A stretch of DNA of 28,597 nucleotides. Source: a virus. Location: IMG/VR virus record IMGVR_UViG_3300031227_000298, positions 1 to 28,597 of that record. One strand, 5' to 3'. Made by a program: the position numbers and the translations under genes. The notes beneath the pieces were generated by a model. It made no database searches. It was given only the letters and a program-made list of their open reading frames with translations, and was not told the DNA's origin. How positions within the stretch are numbered: position 1 is the stretch's first letter; every line of letters begins with the position of its first letter. This document shows, piece by piece, positions 2,829-26,872 of the stretch.

Positions 2829-3231
2829 ATTACTCGCTCTCGCACTCGTCTTAACCTGTGGTATTGTTTTTATAGCACACGCCGCAGTAACAAAGACATT
2901 CATTAGCTCAAAGTTGGATAAGGCAACTTATACTTACGAACTGACAGCAGACCTTGATACTTCGGGGATTCATGACCTCACGGGTGCTTCCTGGGTTGGA
3001 CTGAGTTCAACGGGGATCGCAGCAGACACAATTTCAGTACAGGTTTCCGTTCTCCCCGCGCCTACGATAGCAGGGCAATGGTTTACTTTGACGGATAATT
3101 CAGGGGTAAACCCTTTTGCAGCAGATAATAACCTCTGGCAACAGAATGTTTCAGGAATGAGAGCATTGAGATTTGTTAGGGCAGGAGCAGTTGACGGAGA
3201 CATTACAATGCAGATAACTTTGAAAAAATGA
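2815..3231 (+). CDS. Exported protein with signal peptide, unknown beta-rich domain
   Basis: 138 residues. The N-terminus is a clear Sec signal peptide: basic start (MKKFK), hydrophobic core to about residue 21, and an AHA cleavage motif before AVTKT. The mature part (about 115 residues) is beta-rich with no Cys (WVGLSSTG, QVSVLPAP, GQWFTLTDNSG, MRALRFVRAGAVDGDITMQITLKK). The last part resembles short structural domains in phage proteins, yet the signal peptide predicts export. First gene of a three-gene run of signal-peptide proteins, translationally coupled to the next (ATG 3228 overlaps TGA 3229-3231). Function unknown; a secreted or surface-bound accessory subunit of the larger neighbours is an inference. 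Confidence 0.8.
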   Translation: MKKFKLLALALVLTCGIVFIAHAAVTKTFISSKLDKATYTYELTADLDTSGIHDLTGASWVGLSSTGIAADTISVQVSVLPAPTIAGQWFTLTDNSGVNPFAADNNLWQQNVSGMRALRFVRAGAVDGDITMQITLKK

Positions 3232-4829
3232 AGAAATTTTTATTACTCGGGTTCGGAGTTCTCTTAATGGGAACAGTTTTTGCTATTAATGGTAGCTTCG
3301 TTCCGTCAGAATACGCGAACCGGGCAGATAATATTTTACAAAGGAATGCTGCGGGAGAAATTACTTCCACAACGTCTACTGATACGCTCGGTAGTTCGAG
3401 TGATAGATGGGATAAAATATGGGCAGATGATATTGATACAACTATCGCCACAATCGGCGGTCTTTCAACAGGGGCAATTACAATCGACGTTGACGACACA
3501 GAGGCTTTACTTGTCCGGAAGGATGGAGATGCGGGAGACATATTTACAGTCGATACAGTGGGCTCACAGGTCAAACTTCTCTCTACGGGTGTTTTGGGTG
3601 CGGCTACAACTCCGACTCTTTCTTTTGGAGATGGAGACACAGGATTTTATGAAAGTGCGGATAATACGATTAACGTTGCCCTTAATGGGCTTAATCGGTG
3701 GAGTCTTGCAGGGGCAACATTTGGTGGTGCGGCTGGAACAAGATTTGAAATAAAGAATGTTGATGCCACTGCTACTCTTCCTGTATTTGTTCCGAAAGGA
3801 AACGATGAAGACACAGGAATCGGATATAACGCTAACGACCAACTCTCCCTCATCGCAGGAGGAAAAGAAATGATTCGACTCGTAGAGGACACTGTTTCCT
3901 ATGTACAAATCGCCGCAAATGATATGTGGCTCACTTGGACAGACGTAGCTACTACAGGAACTATCAACGCGATGAAAGTAAACTCTGACGATGAAATAGA
4001 ATTCGGTACAGCAATAAATATAGGAACGCTCGATTTATCTGACGATTCAGGGCTTGTGACTCTTGTTGATATGGGAGTTACAGCAACACCCGGATCAGGA
4101 ACGGTTGAAGGGTACAATTTTGCGGTAGACGCGACTGATATTCTAACGGTGTACGCAGAAGCGGACGGTTCGGGAGGGATTCAGAATGAATCAGTAGGAG
4201 TTGGTACAACAGCACCAGACGGTACATTTCATGTATCAGGGAGCGGGAATATTATTTCTCGGATACAATCAGAGGCGAGTACGACTAGTTCATATGCTTC
4301 TTTAGTTTTCACAAATTCTACATCTGCTACGGTTGATAGCACAGAGATTCGATCTACTCGTACAAATTCTCCGACAAGCTCCGATTCAAATTTAACATTC
4401 TTCACAAGAGGGAATGGTGCAGTAGTAACAGCAATGACAATAGCAACAACTGGAGAGGTTGGAATCGGGACGATAACACCAAGCACAACACTCGAATTAG
4501 ATGGAACATTATCCTACACTCCGAGTGCAGACCAAGCAAGAGCTGACGACTCAACAATTACTATCGACAACACGATTGTAAGGGTAGCAGGTGACGCAGG
4601 AGCGGCAGTATTGGATACCGACCCCGCAATTGAAGACGGAGCTTCTGACGGGCAAATAGTAATCATTCAGGGGACACATGACACGAACACGGTAACAATC
4701 GCGGACGCGGTGAATACAGCAAATCCGGGAGGAGTATCTTGTGTACTCGGTGCTAACGATACAATAAGTTATATGTGGGATTCAGGGGAGTCTCTTTGGG
4801 TGGCTACATCGCAATGTAACGACAACTAA
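3228..4829 (+). CDS. Exported fibre-like protein with VGIGT motifs
   Basis: 533 residues. N-terminal signal peptide (MKKFLLLGFGVLLMG, predicted cut after VFA at about residue 19). The rest is a long, acidic, Thr/Gly/Asp-rich beta protein, nearly free of Cys. Near residues 320-345 and 410-430 it carries two copies of a 'VGVGTTAPDGTFHVSG' / 'VGIGTITPSTTLELDG' motif, a repeat known from phage tail fibres and from large bacterial surface proteins. Earlier blocks (DTLGSSSDRWDKIWADDI; TLSFGDGDTGFYESADNTI) also look like fibre shaft repeats. Normal phage fibres lack a signal peptide, so this protein is either exported from the infected cell or has an unusual hydrophobic anchor. Overlaps the preceding gene by 4 bases; one base separates it from the next. 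Confidence 0.8.
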   Translation: MKKFLLLGFGVLLMGTVFAINGSFVPSEYANRADNILQRNAAGEITSTTSTDTLGSSSDRWDKIWADDIDTTIATIGGLSTGAITIDVDDTEALLVRKDGDAGDIFTVDTVGSQVKLLSTGVLGAATTPTLSFGDGDTGFYESADNTINVALNGLNRWSLAGATFGGAAGTRFEIKNVDATATLPVFVPKGNDEDTGIGYNANDQLSLIAGGKEMIRLVEDTVSYVQIAANDMWLTWTDVATTGTINAMKVNSDDEIEFGTAINIGTLDLSDDSGLVTLVDMGVTATPGSGTVEGYNFAVDATDILTVYAEADGSGGIQNESVGVGTTAPDGTFHVSGSGNIISRIQSEASTTSSYASLVFTNSTSATVDSTEIRSTRTNSPTSSDSNLTFFTRGNGAVVTAMTIATTGEVGIGTITPSTTLELDGTLSYTPSADQARADDSTITIDNTIVRVAGDAGAAVLDTDPAIEDGASDGQIVIIQGTHDTNTVTIADAVNTANPGGVSCVLGANDTISYMWDSGESLWVATSQCNDN

Positions 4830-4830
4830 A

Positions 4831-7056
4831 ATGAAAAAACTTTTAATACTGGCTTTCGGGATTCTAACAATCTGTACAGCTTCGGCTTTCAGTATAATTT
4901 ATAGCGGAGGGGATTTGGTAACGAATGGTGAGTTTTATACTGATACGGATTGGACGAAGGAAGCAGGGTGGACAATTAGTGGAGGCACGGCAAATTGTAA
5001 TGGTAGCCAGTCTGGAGACTCCGCTTTATTTCAAGCATCAGTAGTTGATGTAAGTAAAAAATACAGATACTCGTTCGATTGGACTCGTTCAGCTGGTGAT
5101 GTTGGATTAAGGACACATGACGGTTCATATAATATCCACAGAACAATAACCACTGGTAGTAGTGGAACAGCAACTGGTGATTTCACAACAACTGCGACAT
5201 CAAATGGAACATTATATATTTTTGGAAGTATAGATTTTGTAGGTTCAATCGACAACGTAATAGTCAAAGAAGTAAAGGAGAGTGCGAAGATAGACCCAGC
5301 ACTTGACCCTACTAGAATGCCCTACTCTCCACAAAAGATAGGAGAATGGACACTCGCGGAAAGCGACCAACAATCTGACACTCGGACTCTTTTGAATTCC
5401 TCGGCAGGGACTTCATACGTTACGAGTACTCAGGCATACGGGAAGTTTGATTTCTCGCTATACACGACAGGAAGTAATCACGCAAAGAATACTTTCATTT
5501 CAACAACAACGGACGCTCACGGAAGCGGGGACGGATACACGCTTTATTCAGATAATAACAATGCGATTTCTCTTCGCCTCAAAGATGATACTGTCCTCTT
5601 CACAACGGCAGACTCCTACACGGCAGACGATACATGGTACTTTTTTCGTATAGAAAGACTTGGGGACGGCACTTTCACAGTTTATATCAAAGGGGGGGTG
5701 TATTCTGACTTTACTTTAATAGATACTGTAACAAATAATACGTATACTACGAGTGCCTACATGGTTGCCGACTTGGACGTAGGAGATGCGATACGCGGAG
5801 TTCATGTAGGGGGATTTAAACCTGTTTCAGATTTTGTTGATGGAACAGGCACGACAAGCGTTACAGGCAATCTGGTAGTTTCGGACAAAGCCTCTGGTCA
5901 TAATCATGGGACGTGGTACGGTGAATCTCGAAGAGGTGAATACACACGATTTGACGGGACAGATGATTACATTGATGTTGGAGATACAGGAAAGACAGTA
6001 AACACTGTTTCGTTTTGGATAAAACCAACAACGACCTCGGAAGATATTATGGACTTGGACGGAGGAACTCATACGATTGAAGTTTCCAGTGGAACAATTA
6101 CAGCGACAGGATTTTCTTCTCCAACGATTTACGTTGACGGTTCTGTTTCTTCTACTCTTGATACTGATTGGCATCATGTAGCGATTACAACGGCGACAGG
6201 ATTTTCGGCTTCGGATTTAGATATTGGAAAAGAAACGACATATTTTGACGGTACTTTGGCGAGTGTTCAATTGTTCGGGAAAGAATTATCAATCGTGCAA
6301 ATCAATCAACAACTCACGCAGACAAAACCTGTAACGAAATGGGTAAAGATTGGCGATCAAGTTTGGATGCAAGACCATCTCAATGTGGGAACCAAGATAG
6401 ATGATCCGGGGTCAAGTGCTATCGCCACTGCTTGTGCGGGACACATTGGAGATGTTGTACTAATACCAGCAACAACGGGTATAGAATGCTATTGTATTTC
6501 GGCGACCTATGCCAGTTGTCAACGAAGCGGGATTCTTGGAACGACACAGAAATACTGCTACAGCAACTTAGAATCGAACTGTGATACAAACGGAGCTTTA
6601 TACGAATGGCAAGAAGCCATGGATTTACCCGCAAATTGTGCGTACACTGATTGCTCTGCACAGATAAATACGCCCCACCAAGGAATTTGTCCTGATGGGT
6701 GGCATATTCCTACCGATACAGAATGGAAAACGCTTGAGGGACAGCTGGGAATGACTACAGCTCAACAAGATCTCACTGGATGGCGTGGAACGAACGAAGG
6801 GGATAAAATGAAGACCGTTGACAAATGCTTCGGAAGTAGTAATTGTGGCACTTCTGGATTTTCCGCTCTTTTAGCGGGCTACCGTTATATAGCAGGAGGG
6901 TTCTCTAATAGTGGTTCGAGTGCCTACGTTTGGTCGGCGTCGCAGACTAGCTCAGCGTATGCGTGGAGGCGCAGCTTGGGTTCGGGCTACTCGACGGTGA
7001 CCCGTTCTGCAGGCACTAAGCACTTCGGCTTTTCCCTTCGGTGTTTGCGAGATTAG
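4831..7056 (+). CDS. Exported LamG/FISUMP lectin-like protein with DGR-type variable C-terminus
   Basis: 741 residues. Order of parts: signal peptide (MKKLLILAFGILTICTASA); a CBM4/9-like jelly-roll start (LVTNGEF, TDWTKEAGWTISGG) to about residue 150; a second jelly-roll-like region (about 160-340); a LamG/concanavalin-like domain at about 368-490 (RFDGTDDYIDVGD, VSFWIKPTT, DTDWHHVAI); and a Cys-rich Fibrobacter succinogenes major paralogous (FISUMP) domain from about residue 502 (IGDQVWMQDHLNVGT, LYEWQEAMD, GICPDGWHIPTDTEWKTLE, VWSASQTSSAYAW, GFSLRCLRD at the end). FISUMP domains have a C-type-lectin-related fold. The last ~49 codons differ sharply in composition from the rest (see separate entry). 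Export by signal peptide suggests the protein acts on the cell surface or outside. Likely role: ligand binding or adhesion; the target is unknown. Confidence 0.8.
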   Translation: MKKLLILAFGILTICTASAFSIIYSGGDLVTNGEFYTDTDWTKEAGWTISGGTANCNGSQSGDSALFQASVVDVSKKYRYSFDWTRSAGDVGLRTHDGSYNIHRTITTGSSGTATGDFTTTATSNGTLYIFGSIDFVGSIDNVIVKEVKESAKIDPALDPTRMPYSPQKIGEWTLAESDQQSDTRTLLNSSAGTSYVTSTQAYGKFDFSLYTTGSNHAKNTFISTTTDAHGSGDGYTLYSDNNNAISLRLKDDTVLFTTADSYTADDTWYFFRIERLGDGTFTVYIKGGVYSDFTLIDTVTNNTYTTSAYMVADLDVGDAIRGVHVGGFKPVSDFVDGTGTTSVTGNLVVSDKASGHNHGTWYGESRRGEYTRFDGTDDYIDVGDTGKTVNTVSFWIKPTTTSEDIMDLDGGTHTIEVSSGTITATGFSSPTIYVDGSVSSTLDTDWHHVAITTATGFSASDLDIGKETTYFDGTLASVQLFGKELSIVQINQQLTQTKPVTKWVKIGDQVWMQDHLNVGTKIDDPGSSAIATACAGHIGDVVLIPATTGIECYCISATYASCQRSGILGTTQKYCYSNLESNCDTNGALYEWQEAMDLPANCAYTDCSAQINTPHQGICPDGWHIPTDTEWKTLEGQLGMTTAQQDLTGWRGTNEGDKMKTVDKCFGSSNCGTSGFSALLAGYRYIAGGFSNSGSSAYVWSASQTSSAYAWRRSLGSGYSTVTRSAGTKHFGFSLRCLRD
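6911..7050 (+). other. Candidate variable repeat (VR) of a diversity-generating retroelement
   Basis: I counted 18 A in these 140 bases (13%) and 84 G+C (60%), whereas flanking coding DNA is clearly A-rich. The stretch encodes the end of a FISUMP/C-type-lectin-like domain, the usual place for a VR. Codons such as AGC, GGC, TAC, ACC, CAC and TTC alternate with constant ones, as expected if AAC codons of an A-rich template were mutated at adenines. No template repeat, reverse transcriptase or Avd gene is visible in this window, so this is a candidate only. Confidence 0.5.
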
Positions 7057-7078: not shown

Positions 7079-7273
7079 ATGGAAATTTACTCAACAATGG
7101 ACACAATGAATGAAGACATCTCCGCTTTGCATCAAGCTGACTGCGATATTCAGCAGGAATATGTAGATGAATTAAAGTCTAAGAAAATTACACCCGAGCA
7201 GTTCACACAAAAGCAGGAGGTTTGGGAGAAAGAGTTCAAAGAAAGGTTGGCAATACTTATTGAAAAAAAATGA
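7079..7273 (+). CDS. Small helical protein, unknown function
   Basis: 64 residues, very rich in Glu, Gln and Lys, predicted as one or two long helices (IQQEYVDELKSKKITPEQFTQKQEVWEKEFKERL). No Cys beyond one, no membrane segment. Starts 6 bases after a TATAAT element and overlaps the next ATG (7270) by 4 bases. A downstream Met at codon 7 or 10 is possible, but the first ATG fits the promoter. No recognised family. Confidence 0.7.
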   Translation: MEIYSTMDTMNEDISALHQADCDIQQEYVDELKSKKITPEQFTQKQEVWEKEFKERLAILIEKK

Positions 7274-7752
7274 AGAAATTTTATTTAACCGTTGGCGGCA
7301 TAATTACAATCCTCGGAACGGGGGGTGCTTATAATCAGTTTGATGTCCAAATTGTAACAGGGGACAAGATTATTGTATTTGACACGAAAGTTGAATGCCG
7401 AGAAAGAAAAGCTGAGATAATCGAGATGTTTGAGGATCAGAAATTGAATCCAGATCAGGCATTCATATTGAAAGCGTTTGAGGAGCAAGATTGCGGGATA
7501 ATTTTTGAGGAATCAGTACCACTCGGGGCTGCTCAAATGACCGTCACGGAATCAACAATTTATTACACGAAGGATAATTATAATGAAAGAAAAGACACTC
7601 TTTATAAAAAAACAAAAGCAGACCCGGATGGGCTTGATTTATTTGAACTTCGGGAGCTTACAGGAATACTCAACGAGGAAATAAAGGATCGAGGCGAAGT
7701 GAACATTAGTGATTTCACTCCAAAAGGACTTATTCTTGAGCTTGAAAAATAA
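7270..7752 (+). CDS. Protein with N-terminal membrane/signal segment, unknown function
   Basis: 160 residues. The first 20 (MKKFYLTVGGIITILGTGGA) form a short hydrophobic segment after a Lys pair, either a weak signal peptide or a membrane anchor. The remainder is acidic and mixed: a beta-containing part with two Cys (C43, C75 approximately) and a helical C-terminal part (FELRELTGILNEEIKDRGE). It is the fourth gene in this area with an MKK plus hydrophobic start, so it may belong functionally with the exported cassette, although it is transcribed from the next promoter. No named domain recognised. Confidence 0.7.
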   Translation: MKKFYLTVGGIITILGTGGAYNQFDVQIVTGDKIIVFDTKVECRERKAEIIEMFEDQKLNPDQAFILKAFEEQDCGIIFEESVPLGAAQMTVTESTIYYTKDNYNERKDTLYKKTKADPDGLDLFELRELTGILNEEIKDRGEVNISDFTPKGLILELEK

Positions 7753-12094: not shown

Positions 12095-12927
12095 CATATA
12101 ATTCAACGCTTTTCAACGTAGGACTTTACAACGGGAATTTCAATCTCGGGGCGGTTCTGACATCTACAGAAGACATTTCTTTTAATGGGTACGGATTGCA
12201 GAATTCAAATATTCTGACATCGAGTATTGATATCGAACAAATTGATCGTGATTTTCAAACAGTAGCAGTACCAAATGGAAACGGGCAGATATTAAACTCT
12301 GATTACTGGCGAGGAAAAGAAATCAAGATAAGTGGAACATTGCTTGCCGATTCGAGAGAATCTTTAGAAGCATTGGTATTTAATTTCAAAAAAGAACTTT
12401 CTATTCAATCGAAAAACTTTGACCGCGTCATGGGGGATGGATCAAAGCGGAGATTTATCTGCACAGCAACAAAAATAAATGTAGATGCTTCACAGCACTG
12501 GGCGATCACGAGAGCGACGTTCAGCGTTACATTTACTGTCCTGGTTCCATTCGGGCAGAATACCGCTTACACCGCAAAGAGTTTCACTGTATCTGATTTG
12601 ATATTCTCTGAAATTTTAGAAAACGATGGAAATGCTGACGGAAGCCCTGTGTGGATTCTTATAGTGACATCTGCAACGGATGTGACAGCAATAAATATAA
12701 AGAACAATACAACTGACGAGGAAATAGAAATAACTGAATCTATTTCTGCCGGGGAAGTGATTATCATTGATTCAGAAAACAAAGAAGTTACCGTCGATGG
12801 AACAGAAATTGATTTCGATGGACAGTTCCCTATACTTGACCCTGAAAGTAATTCGTACACAATAACCGTAACAGGTACAGATATTGAGTACGAGCTCACC
12901 GCTAAAAATTTATCCAAATACCTATGA
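12091..12927 (+). CDS. Distal tail protein (Dit-like)
   Basis: 278 residues. It follows the tape measure directly, where siphoviruses encode Dit, the ring at the tail tip. The N-terminal domain has the family's usual pattern (SSIDIEQIDRDFQTVAVPNGNGQILN, then YWRGKEIKISGTLLADSRESLEALVFNFKKELS), followed by FDRVMGDGSKRRFICTATKI and a beta-rich strand 'RATFSVTFTVLVPFG'. The C-terminal half (residues about 165-278) is a beta sandwich (GSPVWILIVTSA…, SNSYTITVTGTDIEYE) as in long Dit proteins of the Sipho_tail type. Overlaps genes on both sides by 4 bases. Confidence 0.8.
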   Translation: MTYNSTLFNVGLYNGNFNLGAVLTSTEDISFNGYGLQNSNILTSSIDIEQIDRDFQTVAVPNGNGQILNSDYWRGKEIKISGTLLADSRESLEALVFNFKKELSIQSKNFDRVMGDGSKRRFICTATKINVDASQHWAITRATFSVTFTVLVPFGQNTAYTAKSFTVSDLIFSEILENDGNADGSPVWILIVTSATDVTAINIKNNTTDEEIEITESISAGEVIIIDSENKEVTVDGTEIDFDGQFPILDPESNSYTITVTGTDIEYELTAKNLSKYL

Positions 12928-14831
12928 GTGGCATTATCCCGATTCCGAAAGACAACGCTTCTGGACAATTTAACGCAGGAATTAGCGCGAGTTCTCTCGC
13001 ACTGGTTCTCAAAGCGGGAGAAGGGGCAAGTTTCCCACAACCAATAACTGACAGCGCAACCAGTTTGGGATCAGGAACGCTTCTTAATTGTACCGGGATT
13101 CAAGCGTTAGGGGTCGCTGTAGGCGATTTTATCTATAATTTGACTGACAGTACCCCTTCTACGGATACGTGGAGTGGTGCGGTTGTTCTGGCGGTTTCCG
13201 CAAACAGTGTCACAACATCTCCTTTGACGGGTGGGTCAGATAATCTCTGGCAATCATCGGACGAATGGGCAGTGAAACCGTTTGTCGTGAATGCGTCAAT
13301 ACGAACAGGCGCGGTTTTAACGGGAGCGGTTACTCAATATGAGAAAATTTTAATTACAGAGCGAAGTACTGATACATTATCAATGCCTGTTGCTTCTGGA
13401 TACAGGGGATTTGATGGCACAACTCCAAACACGTTTTCCGCAGATGATTTCGTGACAATCGAGGTAGATCAATCAATTTCAGATGGAATGCGTATTGCGT
13501 TGGCAAATGTGTTTATTCAAAAGGCAGAAAAAGACGACACAATGCTCTTGGATGGTTCAAACGCCATGACAGCAGCGTTGCAGATGGGATCAAATAAAAT
13601 TACCGGGCTTGGCGACGGAGTAAACCCACAGGACGCGGTCACGCGGGCGCAGCTTGACGCAGTGGCGTCGGCATCATCTTTAACGGGGGAACGCGACAAT
13701 ACCTTCGCTGTTCGTGTTATTTCATGGAACACCGCAACGGTGGGTGGAAATTATGAAGTTAAAAGAGGAGTAGGGGTTGTTGATAGTGGTGCAAATGTTG
13801 ATGGTAGTGGAAGCTATCGAGACTCCGTACCATTGTCGGGGGATATTGAATACACGGTTGAAGTCACCGACGATGAAGATGTCCGAGTGATTACTCCTAT
13901 TTTATATTTCGACAATACTGTCGACGATGTTGTTCCTGTTGGATATTACGGTGACGGTGGCGATGGGGCTTTTGCAGGAGGAGCAATTGAGAGAGGATCC
14001 GTGTACAACTTTTCTTCTTTTATATTGGCATCAGATGCAGTGTTTTCAGCAGGGGGAAAAACGATTATTTTTGTGGAAGGGGATTTGACTATTCCTTCAG
14101 CATGGAAATTGGATTTTGAATCTGGTACACAAACAACAACAAAAGACGACGACACTTTTTTTCCCGAGTCAATAAGTGTTGGGGGGTCAGGTTATGCAAC
14201 CGCAACTGGTGAAAGTTCAGGTGGAACGGGAGGGGCTGGTGGTACTATTTCAGGAAATGCAGGAGGAGCAGGAGGAACAGGAAAGTTCGGAATAGGAGGT
14301 ATTGGTGGCAATGGGGGATCACATGGTTCGGCGGGTAGTGTGGGTACAGGTGGAGGAGGAGGAGGTGGAGGAGGAGGAGGAAGTTCCCCTAGTGGTGGTG
14401 GTGCGTGTGGAGGACCTGGAGGAAATGGAGGTGCCGCGGGTACTGCGCCAGAATACCAAAACACGGTTTTATTCATCGTCGGTGGTGATATTTTAATTGA
14501 GGGAGATATACACGGAAGGGGTGCGACAGGAACAACGGGATCGGTTGGTGCTGATGGGAGTAGTTCATATGCCGGAACGGGAGGAGCAGGTGGTGGTGGT
14601 GGTGCGGGAGGTGCTGGCCCAGACGGATTAAAGTTATTGATGGCACACGCGGGGTCATACGGAAACACAGGAACAACACTTCTCGGTGCAGGAAGCGGTG
14701 GTGCGGGTAGCGCAGGTGGAGCAGGTGGTACAGGGTGTGGTTCTTCCGGTACTTGGGATGGAACACCCGGGGCTGTCGGGGGATCTGCAACGAATGGTTC
14801 AAACGGTGTTATTACAACGCAACAGCTATAA
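12924..14831 (+). CDS. Tail fibre / receptor-binding protein with polyglycine-rich tip
   Basis: 635 residues. About residues 205-245 carry a well-known fibre motif (DGSNAMTAALQMGSNKITGL…PQDAVTRAQLD) that leads from the tail-attachment part to the distal part. From about residue 415 to the end the protein becomes extremely Gly-rich in three blocks (about 419-508, 533-570 and 590-630), including a run of eleven Gly near 14351-14383. In known adhesins such as the S16 gp38 tip, such blocks fold as packed polyglycine-II helices that display receptor-binding loops; applying that here is inference. The gene lies between Dit and the hub. The minus-strand Pro-rich open frame opposite the Gly blocks is a mirror artefact. 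Confidence 0.8.
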   Translation: MSGIIPIPKDNASGQFNAGISASSLALVLKAGEGASFPQPITDSATSLGSGTLLNCTGIQALGVAVGDFIYNLTDSTPSTDTWSGAVVLAVSANSVTTSPLTGGSDNLWQSSDEWAVKPFVVNASIRTGAVLTGAVTQYEKILITERSTDTLSMPVASGYRGFDGTTPNTFSADDFVTIEVDQSISDGMRIALANVFIQKAEKDDTMLLDGSNAMTAALQMGSNKITGLGDGVNPQDAVTRAQLDAVASASSLTGERDNTFAVRVISWNTATVGGNYEVKRGVGVVDSGANVDGSGSYRDSVPLSGDIEYTVEVTDDEDVRVITPILYFDNTVDDVVPVGYYGDGGDGAFAGGAIERGSVYNFSSFILASDAVFSAGGKTIIFVEGDLTIPSAWKLDFESGTQTTTKDDDTFFPESISVGGSGYATATGESSGGTGGAGGTISGNAGGAGGTGKFGIGGIGGNGGSHGSAGSVGTGGGGGGGGGGGSSPSGGGACGGPGGNGGAAGTAPEYQNTVLFIVGGDILIEGDIHGRGATGTTGSVGADGSSSYAGTGGAGGGGGAGGAGPDGLKLLMAHAGSYGNTGTTLLGAGSGGAGSAGGAGGTGCGSSGTWDGTPGAVGGSATNGSNGVITTQQL

Positions 14832-16393: not shown

Positions 16394-17163
16394 GGAATTA
16401 TCAATCATTATCTGATTATTTAAACGAGGTAATCAATAAAGTATTACACAAGAGGCAAGGTGGTGCTTTATATGAAGTAGTTCCAGAAGATGAAATCAAA
16501 CTAAGGGCATCGGTAAAAAAACTCGTAAAACACCCTATTCTTGATCCACACGGCGAGTTGGCTTGGGAAAATTTTCACAACCAGGATCAAGGAAGGACAC
16601 CGTGGTGTGTAGCATATACAATTGCACACGTTCTTTCGTATATGTTGACAGCAAAATATACAAAACGAATAACAATAGAGGGATATTATATTGCAGGACT
16701 CCTTTTAGAGGCAGGAATAATGACAAAGAAGGGAGCTTCTATTATGAGGTCAGTAAAATACATCACTGGATACAGTCAAAGAATAGGAATAAAAGACACA
16801 GAAAAAAATTTATATAATATAAAAGACTGTGAAGCACACGAGCGAAGGGCGACAAAAGATTTGTTATTAAAAGGATTCCCGGTAATATTTGGGGACATGA
16901 TCGGTTCTCCTATGTGTGATAGTAGATATGTTTTGCGGGACGTTCCAACTTCACGAAGTGGTCACGCATTTATGGGTGCGCCATCTAAAAAGGTAATTAC
17001 AATTGAAGATGGTACAGAATGTTTGAACGGAGAAAATTCATGGGATAATTACGGAATCCCGTACATGAACGGAAAAGGAAGAAGCGGGCAGTTCCATATT
17101 GAAGTTGAACACTTGGAAACATTATTCACTCCTTGGATATTTCTCGATGTTAGTAAGGTATGA
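16390..17163 (+). CDS. Papain-like (C1 fold) cysteine peptidase, candidate endolysin
   Basis: 257 residues, no signal peptide. The catalytic elements of the papain fold are present in order: Q67-G within NQDQGRTPWCVAYTIAH with the nucleophile C73 six residues later, the same spacing as Q19/C25 in papain; H192 in SGHAF; and N216 in ENSWDN, matching the family N-S-W motif. Helix after C73 (VAYTIAHVLSYM) also fits. The N-terminal ~60 residues may be a small pro- or binding region. No amidase, lysozyme or NlpC/P60 endolysin is seen elsewhere in the window, and this gene is third in the cassette after two membrane proteins, so it may cut peptidoglycan peptides. That role is inferred; virion maturation or host-protein cleavage are alternatives. 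Confidence 0.75.
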   Translation: MRNYQSLSDYLNEVINKVLHKRQGGALYEVVPEDEIKLRASVKKLVKHPILDPHGELAWENFHNQDQGRTPWCVAYTIAHVLSYMLTAKYTKRITIEGYYIAGLLLEAGIMTKKGASIMRSVKYITGYSQRIGIKDTEKNLYNIKDCEAHERRATKDLLLKGFPVIFGDMIGSPMCDSRYVLRDVPTSRSGHAFMGAPSKKVITIEDGTECLNGENSWDNYGIPYMNGKGRSGQFHIEVEHLETLFTPWIFLDVSKV

Positions 17164-17182
17164 AACAATTAGTAAAAAAGAT

Positions 17183-17211
17183 TTGATTTTGTTTTAGATT
17201 TGTTTTAATCT
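17183..17211 (+). promoter_or_regulatory. Putative leaderless promoter for the HTH regulator
   Basis: TTGATT (17183-17188), 17 bases, TAATCT (17206-17211), 7 bases to ATG 17219. First promoter of the early region. Confidence 0.5.
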
Positions 17212-17443: not shown

Positions 17444-17694
17444 TATATTCAGACATCGTTTGCACAACTGTTGAAGGAGGAAACATAAACACCTCAGTAC
17501 ATTTTGATTTTTATGGAGTTAAAAAAGAAGAAGATTTCTGGAAAAAGAAAATAACTGAATATATGGAATCCCAAAAGAATCCATCAAACATTGATATTTT
17601 CCGGTTCTTTGCGCTCAACGGATGGCGTCGTGCAGGGCGACTTTCGTTCTACAAAGAAAGTGTTGGAAAAAAGTCGAAAACCGACTTGCTTTAA
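17440..17694 (+). CDS. Unknown early protein, 84 residues
   Basis: Starts inside the HTH gene's stop (ATGA). Translation: a beta-rich beginning (MIYSDIVCTTVEGGNINTSVHFDFYGV), a charged helix (KEEDFWKKKITEYMESQ) and a basic end (NGWRRAGRLSFYKESVGKKSKTDLL). No membrane segment and one Cys. No recognised domain. Its last codons contain the -35 of the next promoter (TTGCTT at 17686). Confidence 0.7.
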   Translation: MIYSDIVCTTVEGGNINTSVHFDFYGVKKEEDFWKKKITEYMESQKNPSNIDIFRFFALNGWRRAGRLSFYKESVGKKSKTDLL

Positions 17695-17714
17695 TCTTAA
17701 ATCTGATTTAATAT
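17686..17714 (+). promoter_or_regulatory. Putative promoter with TTGCTT and TAATAT
   Basis: TTGCTT (17686-17691), 17 bases, TAATAT (17709-17714). Transcription should start about 17721, within or just before a hairpin that ends at the next start codon. Confidence 0.6.
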
Positions 17715-20173: not shown

Positions 20174-20590
20174 ATGACAACATTACAAAAAACCGTTTAC
20201 GAGGACGACAATCAAATAGTTCTTGTCAGAAAGGATGGGGGAGGAATAAACATAACACAGATATTCTCGGCACTATCATTTAGAAACAAAAACCGTGAAA
20301 CAACGGTAACTATAGACAAGGAAACGCTCGACAGAATACACGACATATACGTCAAAAACACGGAATCAGAAGTGATTCCGATTGAGCTTCTCGGATTAAG
20401 TAGGGGTACAGAAAACGCCCTACTAAACGAGGGGATAGGGACAGTGAACGACCTCCTGAAGCATACAGTCTTTGATATAGAGTCGATTCGGAGAGTCGGA
20501 TATAAAGCAAAACGCGAAATCATTGACGTGTTGGCAGAAAGAGGACTATCCCTCAAGAAATTGTGGAGAAAAAACTTGCACAAAAGTTAA
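20174..20590 (+). CDS. RNA polymerase alpha-CTD-like protein
   Basis: 138 residues. Residues about 68-128 reproduce the alpha C-terminal domain pattern: 'IPIELLGLSRGTENALLNEG' like 'P.e.L.LS.R..N.L...', then 'IGTVNDLLKHTVFDIESIRRVGYKAKREIIDVLAERGLSL' like 'I.tv.dL...t...L..irn.G.ks..Ei...L...Gl.L', the two helix-hairpin-helix units that bind UP-element DNA and activators. The N-terminal 65 residues show no alpha-NTD assembly domain (expected about 230 residues), only a short beta/helix region. So it is a separate alpha-CTD mimic, which could redirect host polymerase. An unrelated helix-hairpin-helix DNA-binding protein is the alternative. Confidence 0.75.
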   Translation: MTTLQKTVYEDDNQIVLVRKDGGGINITQIFSALSFRNKNRETTVTIDKETLDRIHDIYVKNTESEVIPIELLGLSRGTENALLNEGIGTVNDLLKHTVFDIESIRRVGYKAKREIIDVLAERGLSLKKLWRKNLHKS

Positions 20591-20604
20591 AACTCATTTA
20601 ATAT
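20576..20604 (+). promoter_or_regulatory. Putative leaderless promoter with conserved core
   Basis: TTGCAC (20576-20581), 17 bases, TAATAT (20599-20604), 7 bases to ATG 20612. Shares the 19-base stretch from 20587 to 20605 with the promoter at 26844-26872. Confidence 0.65.
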
Positions 20605-20611
20605 TAAACCA

Positions 20612-20821
20612 ATGAAAACAGCAAAATACGCAATCGGCACAAAGTTCAAAAGAAGGAATCGCAAATATGCGAAAGTTGAAACCGTTACAGATATTTTGAC
20701 AACGAAAAACAGCGCGGGTGAAGTTGTGAAAATAAGATACGCAACAGAGCATGAATTTTGCGAGCAAATGGTTTCAAGCTCATGTCCCGGAACAACTATT
20801 GCTTTATCAGACATACTATGA
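20612..20821 (+). CDS. Small basic protein, possible beta-barrel, unknown
   Basis: 69 residues (MKTAKYAIGTKFKRRNRKYAKVETVTDILTTKNSAGEVVKIRYATEHEF…). Alternating hydrophobic strands around a basic start suggest a small beta barrel. One Cys pair (FCEQM, SSCPG). Leaderless start. The stop TGA (20819-20821) overlaps the annealase start (20818) as ATGA. No named family. Confidence 0.65.
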   Translation: MKTAKYAIGTKFKRRNRKYAKVETVTDILTTKNSAGEVVKIRYATEHEFCEQMVSSSCPGTTIALSDIL

Positions 20822-22744: not shown

Positions 22745-23404
22745 ATGAAAGATTTACTCGTCCAGTTTAAATTCAAAAACAACATATTTGCAAAAGCACT
22801 TGAGAAAAAAATGCTTGAATATGGCATTGAGACAATCACAGAATTTTCAAAACTAATGATAGAGAAAGGAATTTTCTCTAACCGATCGATAAGGAAAGGA
22901 GAGGTTAGTTCGTTTGGGAATCTTACTGGAAATCCAAGACTCAAAGACGGGAGATTCAGACCCTCTGCAATAGAAATATCAAAGGCTCTAGGTGTTCCCC
23001 CGGAAGAATTATATCCAGTTGGATTATACGCATACGTTTCTATCGGATTAGCACTTCCAAAAATAGAGCTTGAAACAGATAGCAATAATTTCATTGCTCT
23101 TGATTCTCCAGAAGTGCTTTCTCTTGATTCGGGTGTAGATATAGAAGAAGAAGTGTCAAAACAAATAAGTAGAGAAAAATTCCACGAATTATTACAAGCA
23201 TTATTCTTGCTCATTTCTTCACGGGAACGGAAAATTCTTACAATGCGTTTCGGATTAGAGGATGGAGTACAACATACGCTGGAAGAAGTTGGTATAGAAT
23301 TTAACGTAACACGCGAGAGAGTTCGATCTATAGAGGCGAAAGTTCTTGAAAACCTAAGAAATAATAAAATATCAGAGAAGTTTTTTGCAGAAAGTACAAA
23401 ATAG
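22745..23404 (+). CDS. Hybrid regulator: HTH domain fused to sigma70 region 4
   Basis: 219 residues. About residues 148-206 match sigma70 region 4: [39 protein letters not shown] and [11 protein letters not shown], closely parallel to the primary-sigma consensus 'R-E..vl.mRFGl.d...hTLEEVg..f.VTRERIRQIEaKaL.kLR', which binds -35 elements. There is no region 2 (no -10-melting helices). Instead, residues about 14-90 hold a helix-turn-helix-like segment ([20 protein letters not shown]…, [19 protein letters not shown]) of XRE type. So it cannot be a full sigma factor; it could dock on RNA polymerase or DNA as a sigma4 mimic. Followed by the TTGCTT/TAATAT promoter. Confidence 0.75.
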
Positions 23405-23406
23405 AC

Positions 23407-23435
23407 TTGCTTTTTTCTTCAATATGATTTAATAT
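23407..23435 (+). promoter_or_regulatory. Putative promoter with short leader
   Basis: TTGCTT (23407-23412), 17 bases, TAATAT (23430-23435). ATG 23459 is 23 bases past the -10, so a leader of about 17 bases is predicted, rich in A and C and free of a Shine-Dalgarno sequence. Confidence 0.6.
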
Positions 23436-26654: not shown

Positions 26655-26825
26655 ATGGCAAGAGACTGCCCCGATTGCGGCGAGGCGTTAGTTATCCGGG
26701 AAGACCGGGGAACGGGAAAAAAATTCTATGGATGCTCGGCATTTCCTGAGTGTGATTACACAGAAGAGATTAATGAATTCGTTGAAGGATGGGATGAAAG
26801 ACAAATTGACATAAACAGGAAATGA
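26655..26825 (+). CDS. Topoisomerase-type C4 zinc-finger protein, stand-alone
   Basis: 56 residues from ATG 26655; a longer open frame starts at 26604 within the helicase gene, but its extra N-terminus overlaps the helicase C-terminus. Zinc ligands C5-x2-C8…C27-x5-C33 (CPDCGEALVIRED, FYGCSAFPECDYTEEI) match the zf-C4_Topoisom domain that repeats at the end of topoisomerase I, where it binds single-stranded DNA. Here only one finger is present with an acidic tail. A ssDNA-binding replication helper is likely. Confidence 0.8.
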   Translation: MARDCPDCGEALVIREDRGTGKKFYGCSAFPECDYTEEINEFVEGWDERQIDINRK

Positions 26826-26843
26826 AAAAAGTCGGAAATAGAT

Positions 26844-26872
26844 TTGCATTAAAATTAAAACTCATTTAATAT
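26844..26872 (+). promoter_or_regulatory. Putative leaderless promoter with conserved core
   Basis: TTGCAT (26844-26849), 17 bases, TAATAT (26867-26872), 7 bases to ATG 26880. The stretch 26855-26873 is identical to that at 20587-20605. Confidence 0.65.

Follow-up and report, generated by a model that had tools for sequence, protein, structure and literature searches.

The 3' end of a FISUMP (Fib_succ_major) gene carried by a tailed phage is very probably the variable repeat (VR) of a diversity-generating retroelement (DGR). We lean towards a joint reading in which the phage captured this target from a cell and has it diversified in trans by the DGR of its host. The gene lies in what we call the window, the whole 28.6 kb stretch analysed here (28,597 nucleotides), a linear IMG/VR fragment of a tailed phage with genes for DnaB and for the tail tube, tape measure, Dit and tail fibre. 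These 28.6 kb yielded no gene for a terminase, portal or capsid, indicating that at least about 10 kb of the phage is missing. When viral contigs were searched with one protein at a time, neither the FISUMP domain nor DnaB brought up a relative, and the relative in phage LR756501 is only 28% identical.

An adenine-poor tail on a phage FISUMP gene

The features on which the argument turns are as follows.

4831–7056, + strand: FISUMP (Fib_succ_major) gene, 741 aa, with PF09603 at residues 505–740 (E = 1.2e-34)
6870–7056, + strand: predicted VR, from A depletion and codon architecture; its 5' edge is approximate and taken from true VR/TR pairs
6909–7051, + strand: low-A core of the predicted VR, from A depletion
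6964–7044, + strand: core of the TGG-x-R-x-L...K-x-x-GFS.RC architecture, from the match to codon architecture
3228–4829, + strand: gene upstream of the FISUMP gene, with a Phage_depo_C domain (PF25692, E = 1.7e-5)
7079–7273, + strand: 64-aa open reading frame at the position of avd in the relative G011, matching no family and by sequence no Avd homologue
7270–7752, + strand: homologue of the G011 gene 3' of avd, by synteny (28% over 119 aa, E = 1e-7)

A first-pass annotation of this DNA had described 6911–7050 as depleted in adenine, and counting gave 12.9% A and 60% G+C, against averages of 34.3% and 40.7% over all 140-base segments. When the whole window was scanned, only 0.014% of such segments were equally A-poor, and every one fell within 6909–7051. 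Adenine occupies 6% of third codon positions in the tail and 29% in the remainder of the FISUMP domain; of the codons for which an A ending is possible, 3 of 36 have it in the tail versus 138 of 343 upstream (P = 5e-5). Ranked among the C-termini of 85 genes from three phages, the window FISUMP tail is the most extreme and that of the G011 FISUMP gene the second. Codon shuffling showed the drop in A to be specific to the 3' end of gene 4831–7056, with 5,000 shuffles never yielding an equally A-poor 3' end and only once an equally A-poor stretch anywhere. The extent first proposed, 6911–7056, holds for the low-A core but probably begins too late, as true VR/TR boundaries in relatives put the start of the VR near 6870, some 40 bases further 5'; a likelihood analysis sets the change point at 6843.

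Counts of NNY codons were set aside, since such codons are also plentiful in ordinary FISUMP tails, and A-ending synonymous codons proved the better discriminator of VR tails. The many NNY codons of other FISUMP tails, several of them (L008, L089 and L027) without A depletion, would suit a tail with no DGR history at all, simply G+C-rich and serine- and glycine-rich as is usual at the C-terminus of FISUMP proteins. We regard this as very improbable given the depletion of A-ending synonymous codons in the tail, the position of the domain as sister to true DGR targets and the avd gene that adjoins the orthologous gene in G011, the latter two described below.

The tail also lies where it had been placed, at the end of a FISUMP lectin-related gene: the match at residues 505–740 scores 120.6 bits, against a Fib_succ_major cut-off of 33.9, and spans profile positions 1–187 of 187. 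An AlphaFold model of the domain (pLDDT 82) gave weak matches to the PDB, the best being the C-terminal domain of Legionella Lcl and 4EPS, followed by C-type lectins; the modelled fold fits the scaffold known from DGR targets without proving it. By its Fib_succ_major tail and this weak fold match, the predicted VR occupies the 3' end of a C-type-lectin-like gene, and Fib_succ_major is a reported DGR target domain (PMC4159848). The gene product is a putative exported or virion-associated C-type-lectin-like binding protein.

By eye, signal-peptide-like starts are present on two adjoining window genes, at 4831–4893 and 3228–3280 (MKKLLILAFGILTICTASAFS; MKKFLLLGFGVLLMGTVFA), and on the G011 homologue. 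Export would be unusual for phage tail fibres, and the signal-peptide-like N-terminus, as judged by eye, suggests that the window FISUMP protein may be exported rather than part of the tail. The N-terminal part of the 3228–4829 product is homologous to the N-terminus of the G011 FISUMP gene (55% over 154 aa). Elsewhere in the window, a repetitive glycine-rich stretch (14200–14740) lies within the putative tail fibre 12924–14831, and a sigma-factor-like gene occupies 22745–23404 (phrog_351, E = 1.9e-15). Repeats at 17149–17211, 17652–17714, 20558–20614, 23373–23435 and 26810–26872 are intergenic, precede genes and end in a TTGC...TTTAATAT block; they are probably phage promoters.

Genuine DGRs of the same architecture

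Requiring exact constant codons, some of them guessed, gave no matches, and a degenerate pattern of the tail architecture was used instead, matching 102 stretches in the genome collection. Ten AAY-rich, template-like copies in the genome collections carry AAC or AAT at the same codon columns, eight of them with a reverse transcriptase (RT) bearing an RYVDD motif on the same contig. In five genomes (L009, L012, L016, L039 and L088), template and target differ at 9–22 template adenines and at 0–1 other bases; differences confined almost wholly to template adenines identify these as genuine DGRs of the same architecture. At L009, the VR, avd, template and RT all lie on one contig. In G004, the genome of L039, the order VR-avd-TR reaches the contig end and no RT was seen, probably a contig-edge effect since the cassette runs up to that end.

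At the eight columns that are mostly AAY in templates, the window reads AGG, AGC, GGT, TAC, ACC, TCT, GGC and TTC, so that seven of eight codons are NNY and none is AAY, in agreement with the earlier proposal that its NNC/NNT codons stand in register with template AAC codons. The first column is AAA or AGA in several templates, and the single non-NNY codon of the window there is thus no conflict. Variable codons in the AAY register are accompanied by constant codons that avoid A. This A-avoiding architecture, like that of true DGR targets, combined with a sister position to Patescibacteria-type targets, leads us to read the window tail as a VR. The DGR variable repeat proposed at first pass is thereby upheld, by the codon architecture of true pairs, by FISUMP kinship and by the avd beside the G011 gene.

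Kinship was assessed with a tree built from 45 FISUMP domains, the bootstrap of which had yet to settle fully; there, the window domain is sister to the cellular targets L009, L040, L043, L071, L094 and L105 (support 98/93). The genomes of this clade are all 0.7–0.9 Mb, several coming from bins titled Patescibacteria. The G011 FISUMP gene is sister to L039, from a Gracilibacteria bin (support 99/92). The phage rows of the tree require four separate label changes, suggesting that phages probably acquired FISUMP targets independently. The most likely source of the domain in the window's phage lineage is a cellular DGR target of a Patescibacterium. A distant homologue of a tail protein occurs in 1 of 287 Patescibacteria genomes and in none of 296 from the phylum to which the Bacteroidales genome G003 belongs; together with the domain kinship and the G011 Avd, this suggests a host among the Patescibacteria.

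In the flanks of these repeats, a repeated GACTATTT(GACTATTT) element occurs within 100 bases 3' of 24 of the 102 VR-type tails versus 28 of 13,124 background windows (P = 4e-38), and after 0 of 15 templates. It sits after VR stop codons in L007-L108, G011 (L004) and L162 and is a candidate target-side homing signal shared across phyla. The element is absent after window position 7056. No hairpin was found after the window VR, and likewise none follows the true VR of L009.

VR-bearing phages and the search for RT, template and Avd

The first-pass annotation had reported no template repeat, Avd or RT in the window, and this held up. A copy search found no near-copy of the VR inside the window, and an Avd search found no Avd there, the 64-aa frame at the avd position having no recognisable kinship. 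Neither a DGR-RT HMM nor tblastn detected an RT in the window, itself a fragment, or in the phages G011, G012 and G013. Of the parts that complete a DGR cassette, RT, template and Avd, the window fragment therefore yielded none.

G011 (IMG/VR 3300023292_000021; 39,664 bases) provides a complete relative, as its first bases recur at 39,107, making it terminally redundant by 557 bases. It shares with the window more than 15 genes in common order, including a Dit-like protein 63% identical, and its FISUMP gene has a tail of the same VR type. Directly 3' of that gene lies a 113-aa bAvd (PF22296, E = 4.7e-13) with 68–71% identity to the Avd of DGR loci L104 and L039. G011 has no match to RVT_1 or to a DGR RT profile, and no template copy was found in it. 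The region corresponding to the missing part of the window holds genes for S-adenosylmethionine (SAM) synthetase, terminase, a Mu-like portal and protease; a ParB/N6_N4 methylase fusion (27164–29733; 7500–10066 in L144) adjoins the SAM synthetase.

These results bear on a further possibility, that the phage itself encodes RT and TR in a portion of its genome that the window does not cover. A 28.6 kb linear fragment that lacks terminase, portal and capsid genes and at least about 10 kb of sequence leaves room for them. However, the RT genes of DGRs normally adjoin target and avd, and the window genes after the FISUMP target lead into tail genes with no RT among them; moreover, complete G011 has neither RT nor TR, other genes filling the corresponding region. 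We consider this explanation quite improbable.

The architecture recurs in ten IMG/VR contigs, and an RVT_1 search found an RT in none of the ten; an RT in the viral record G014 was left out of this count because its motif is RYADD and no FISUMP domain was found in G014. G013 (sample 3300008255) is a second complete VR-bearing phage, an unrelated one of 44,430 bases with a terminal repeat at 44,307 and a terminase. Terminase genes are also present in G012 and L163, a portal gene in L159, and baseplate and virion genes in L160. Avoidance of A in the tail was significant (P ≤ 1.3e-4) for the window, G011, G012, G013, one L160 gene, L162, L163, both G402 genes and G406; L159 and L164 have more coding sequence past the repeat, making the codon test as run uninformative there. 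Two neighbouring VR genes of L160 differ in their tails at 20 nonsynonymous and 1 synonymous codons, versus 22 and 18 upstream, and tail differences that are nearly all nonsynonymous are expected if one template rewrote both tails after the genes had diverged. The same comparison for the G402 pair was undistinctive (12 and 5 in the tail versus 12 and 4 upstream). L160 also contains a tandem of three FISUMP genes (4490–6589), with VR-type tails on at least two.

The idea of a retroelement placed beyond the window or working in trans became likelier with two complete VR-bearing phages lacking RT and TR, but is unproven, and the cognate template was not found. No template compatible with the window tail was present in viral contigs, in 295 genomes of the order of L009 (allowing up to three mismatches) or in the fetched loci. 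For G011, a 57-base compatibility pattern searched against 353 genomes of the class of L039 gave a sole match, rejected as a poly-A artefact. All the templates compared are excluded as the source of the phage VRs by 10–18 mismatches at non-A sites. The template nearest to the window VR in the genome collection has at least 13 non-A mismatches; since the pattern should fit the window's own template, the host is probably outside that collection.

A mutator proposed to come from the host

In the mechanism that we favour, a DGR target gene of a cell, most likely a Patescibacterium, would have been the source of the FISUMP domain in the phage lineage, and the phage would hold the target only. The mutator, a template RNA and RT acting in trans, would come from the host, and Avd from host or phage. 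Host template RNA and RT would then yield cDNA mutagenised at adenines, which would take the place of the phage VR in the course of infection or lysogeny and so alter the ligand-binding face of the lectin-like protein. On this reading, the variation of the phage VR would be current, and the window FISUMP protein would bind a receptor or ligand.

The main competitor is that a host DGR target was picked up with its VR already in place and has since been passed on without change, as a binding domain of the ordinary kind. The window, without template, RT or avd and missing the GACTATTT element seen after many VRs, looks as it should in that case, and a recent capture would be expected to look like this too, given that tail and gene body contrast in the same way in host targets. 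Yet the third positions of the tail have not drifted towards the A-rich usage of the phage (3 of 36 versus about 40%) despite the deep divergence of the window phage and G011, and a dead repeat would make the retention of avd in G011 hard to understand. Independent recent captures could account for both of these observations. Weighing these points, we consider an unchanging inherited repeat unlikely, though a serious contender to continued diversification by the host.

Among known systems, the DGR of Bordetella phage BPP-1 (mtd VR, TR, avd and brt) resembles the window in having its VR at the 3' end of a C-type-lectin-fold phage gene. BPP-1, however, has TR, Avd and RT in cis and a hairpin following its VR, features that were all looked for in the window and not found. 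In experiments, a BPP-1 recipient phage without the retroelement was retargeted during lytic infection when a donor plasmid supplied avd, brt and TR (PMC3240598). E. coli supports a reconstituted BPP-1 DGR (PMC12875486). The cellular DGRs of Patescibacteria (L009, L012, L093 and L104, and L039 with its RT unseen) share with the phages a Fib_succ_major target and the VR codon architecture, and their Avd is homologous to that of G011; they differ in having a complete VR-avd-TR-RT cassette, whereas the phages hold the target only (the window and G013) or target and avd (G011). These Patescibacteria DGRs would belong to clade 2 of Roux et al. 2021, described as almost entirely cellular (PMC8144416). 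In Thiohalocapsa PB-PSB1, some VRs without local RT or TR are best explained by activity in trans (PMC10907252), there inside one bacterial genome and in our proposal from host to phage. In the literature searched, with subscription literature outside its scope, no natural phage was reported to depend on the DGR of its host.

DGR surveys start from the reverse transcriptase, and the authors of one of the largest say that it misses remote targets (PMC8144416); the A-avoidance test used here detects orphan DGR targets without need of an RT. We tentatively entertain, with somewhat less confidence than the reading of the window itself, a recurring phage class, chiefly on Patescibacteria, whose members carry DGR targets with or without avd, lack template and RT and are diversified in trans by the host DGR. 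If this is true, VR-bearing phages without an RT would form an unseen group of hypervariable viruses, and a use would be found for the many cellular DGRs of Patescibacteria. A host's diversity generator would then have been turned to the benefit of the virus, with the phage parasitising the mutation machine of its host.
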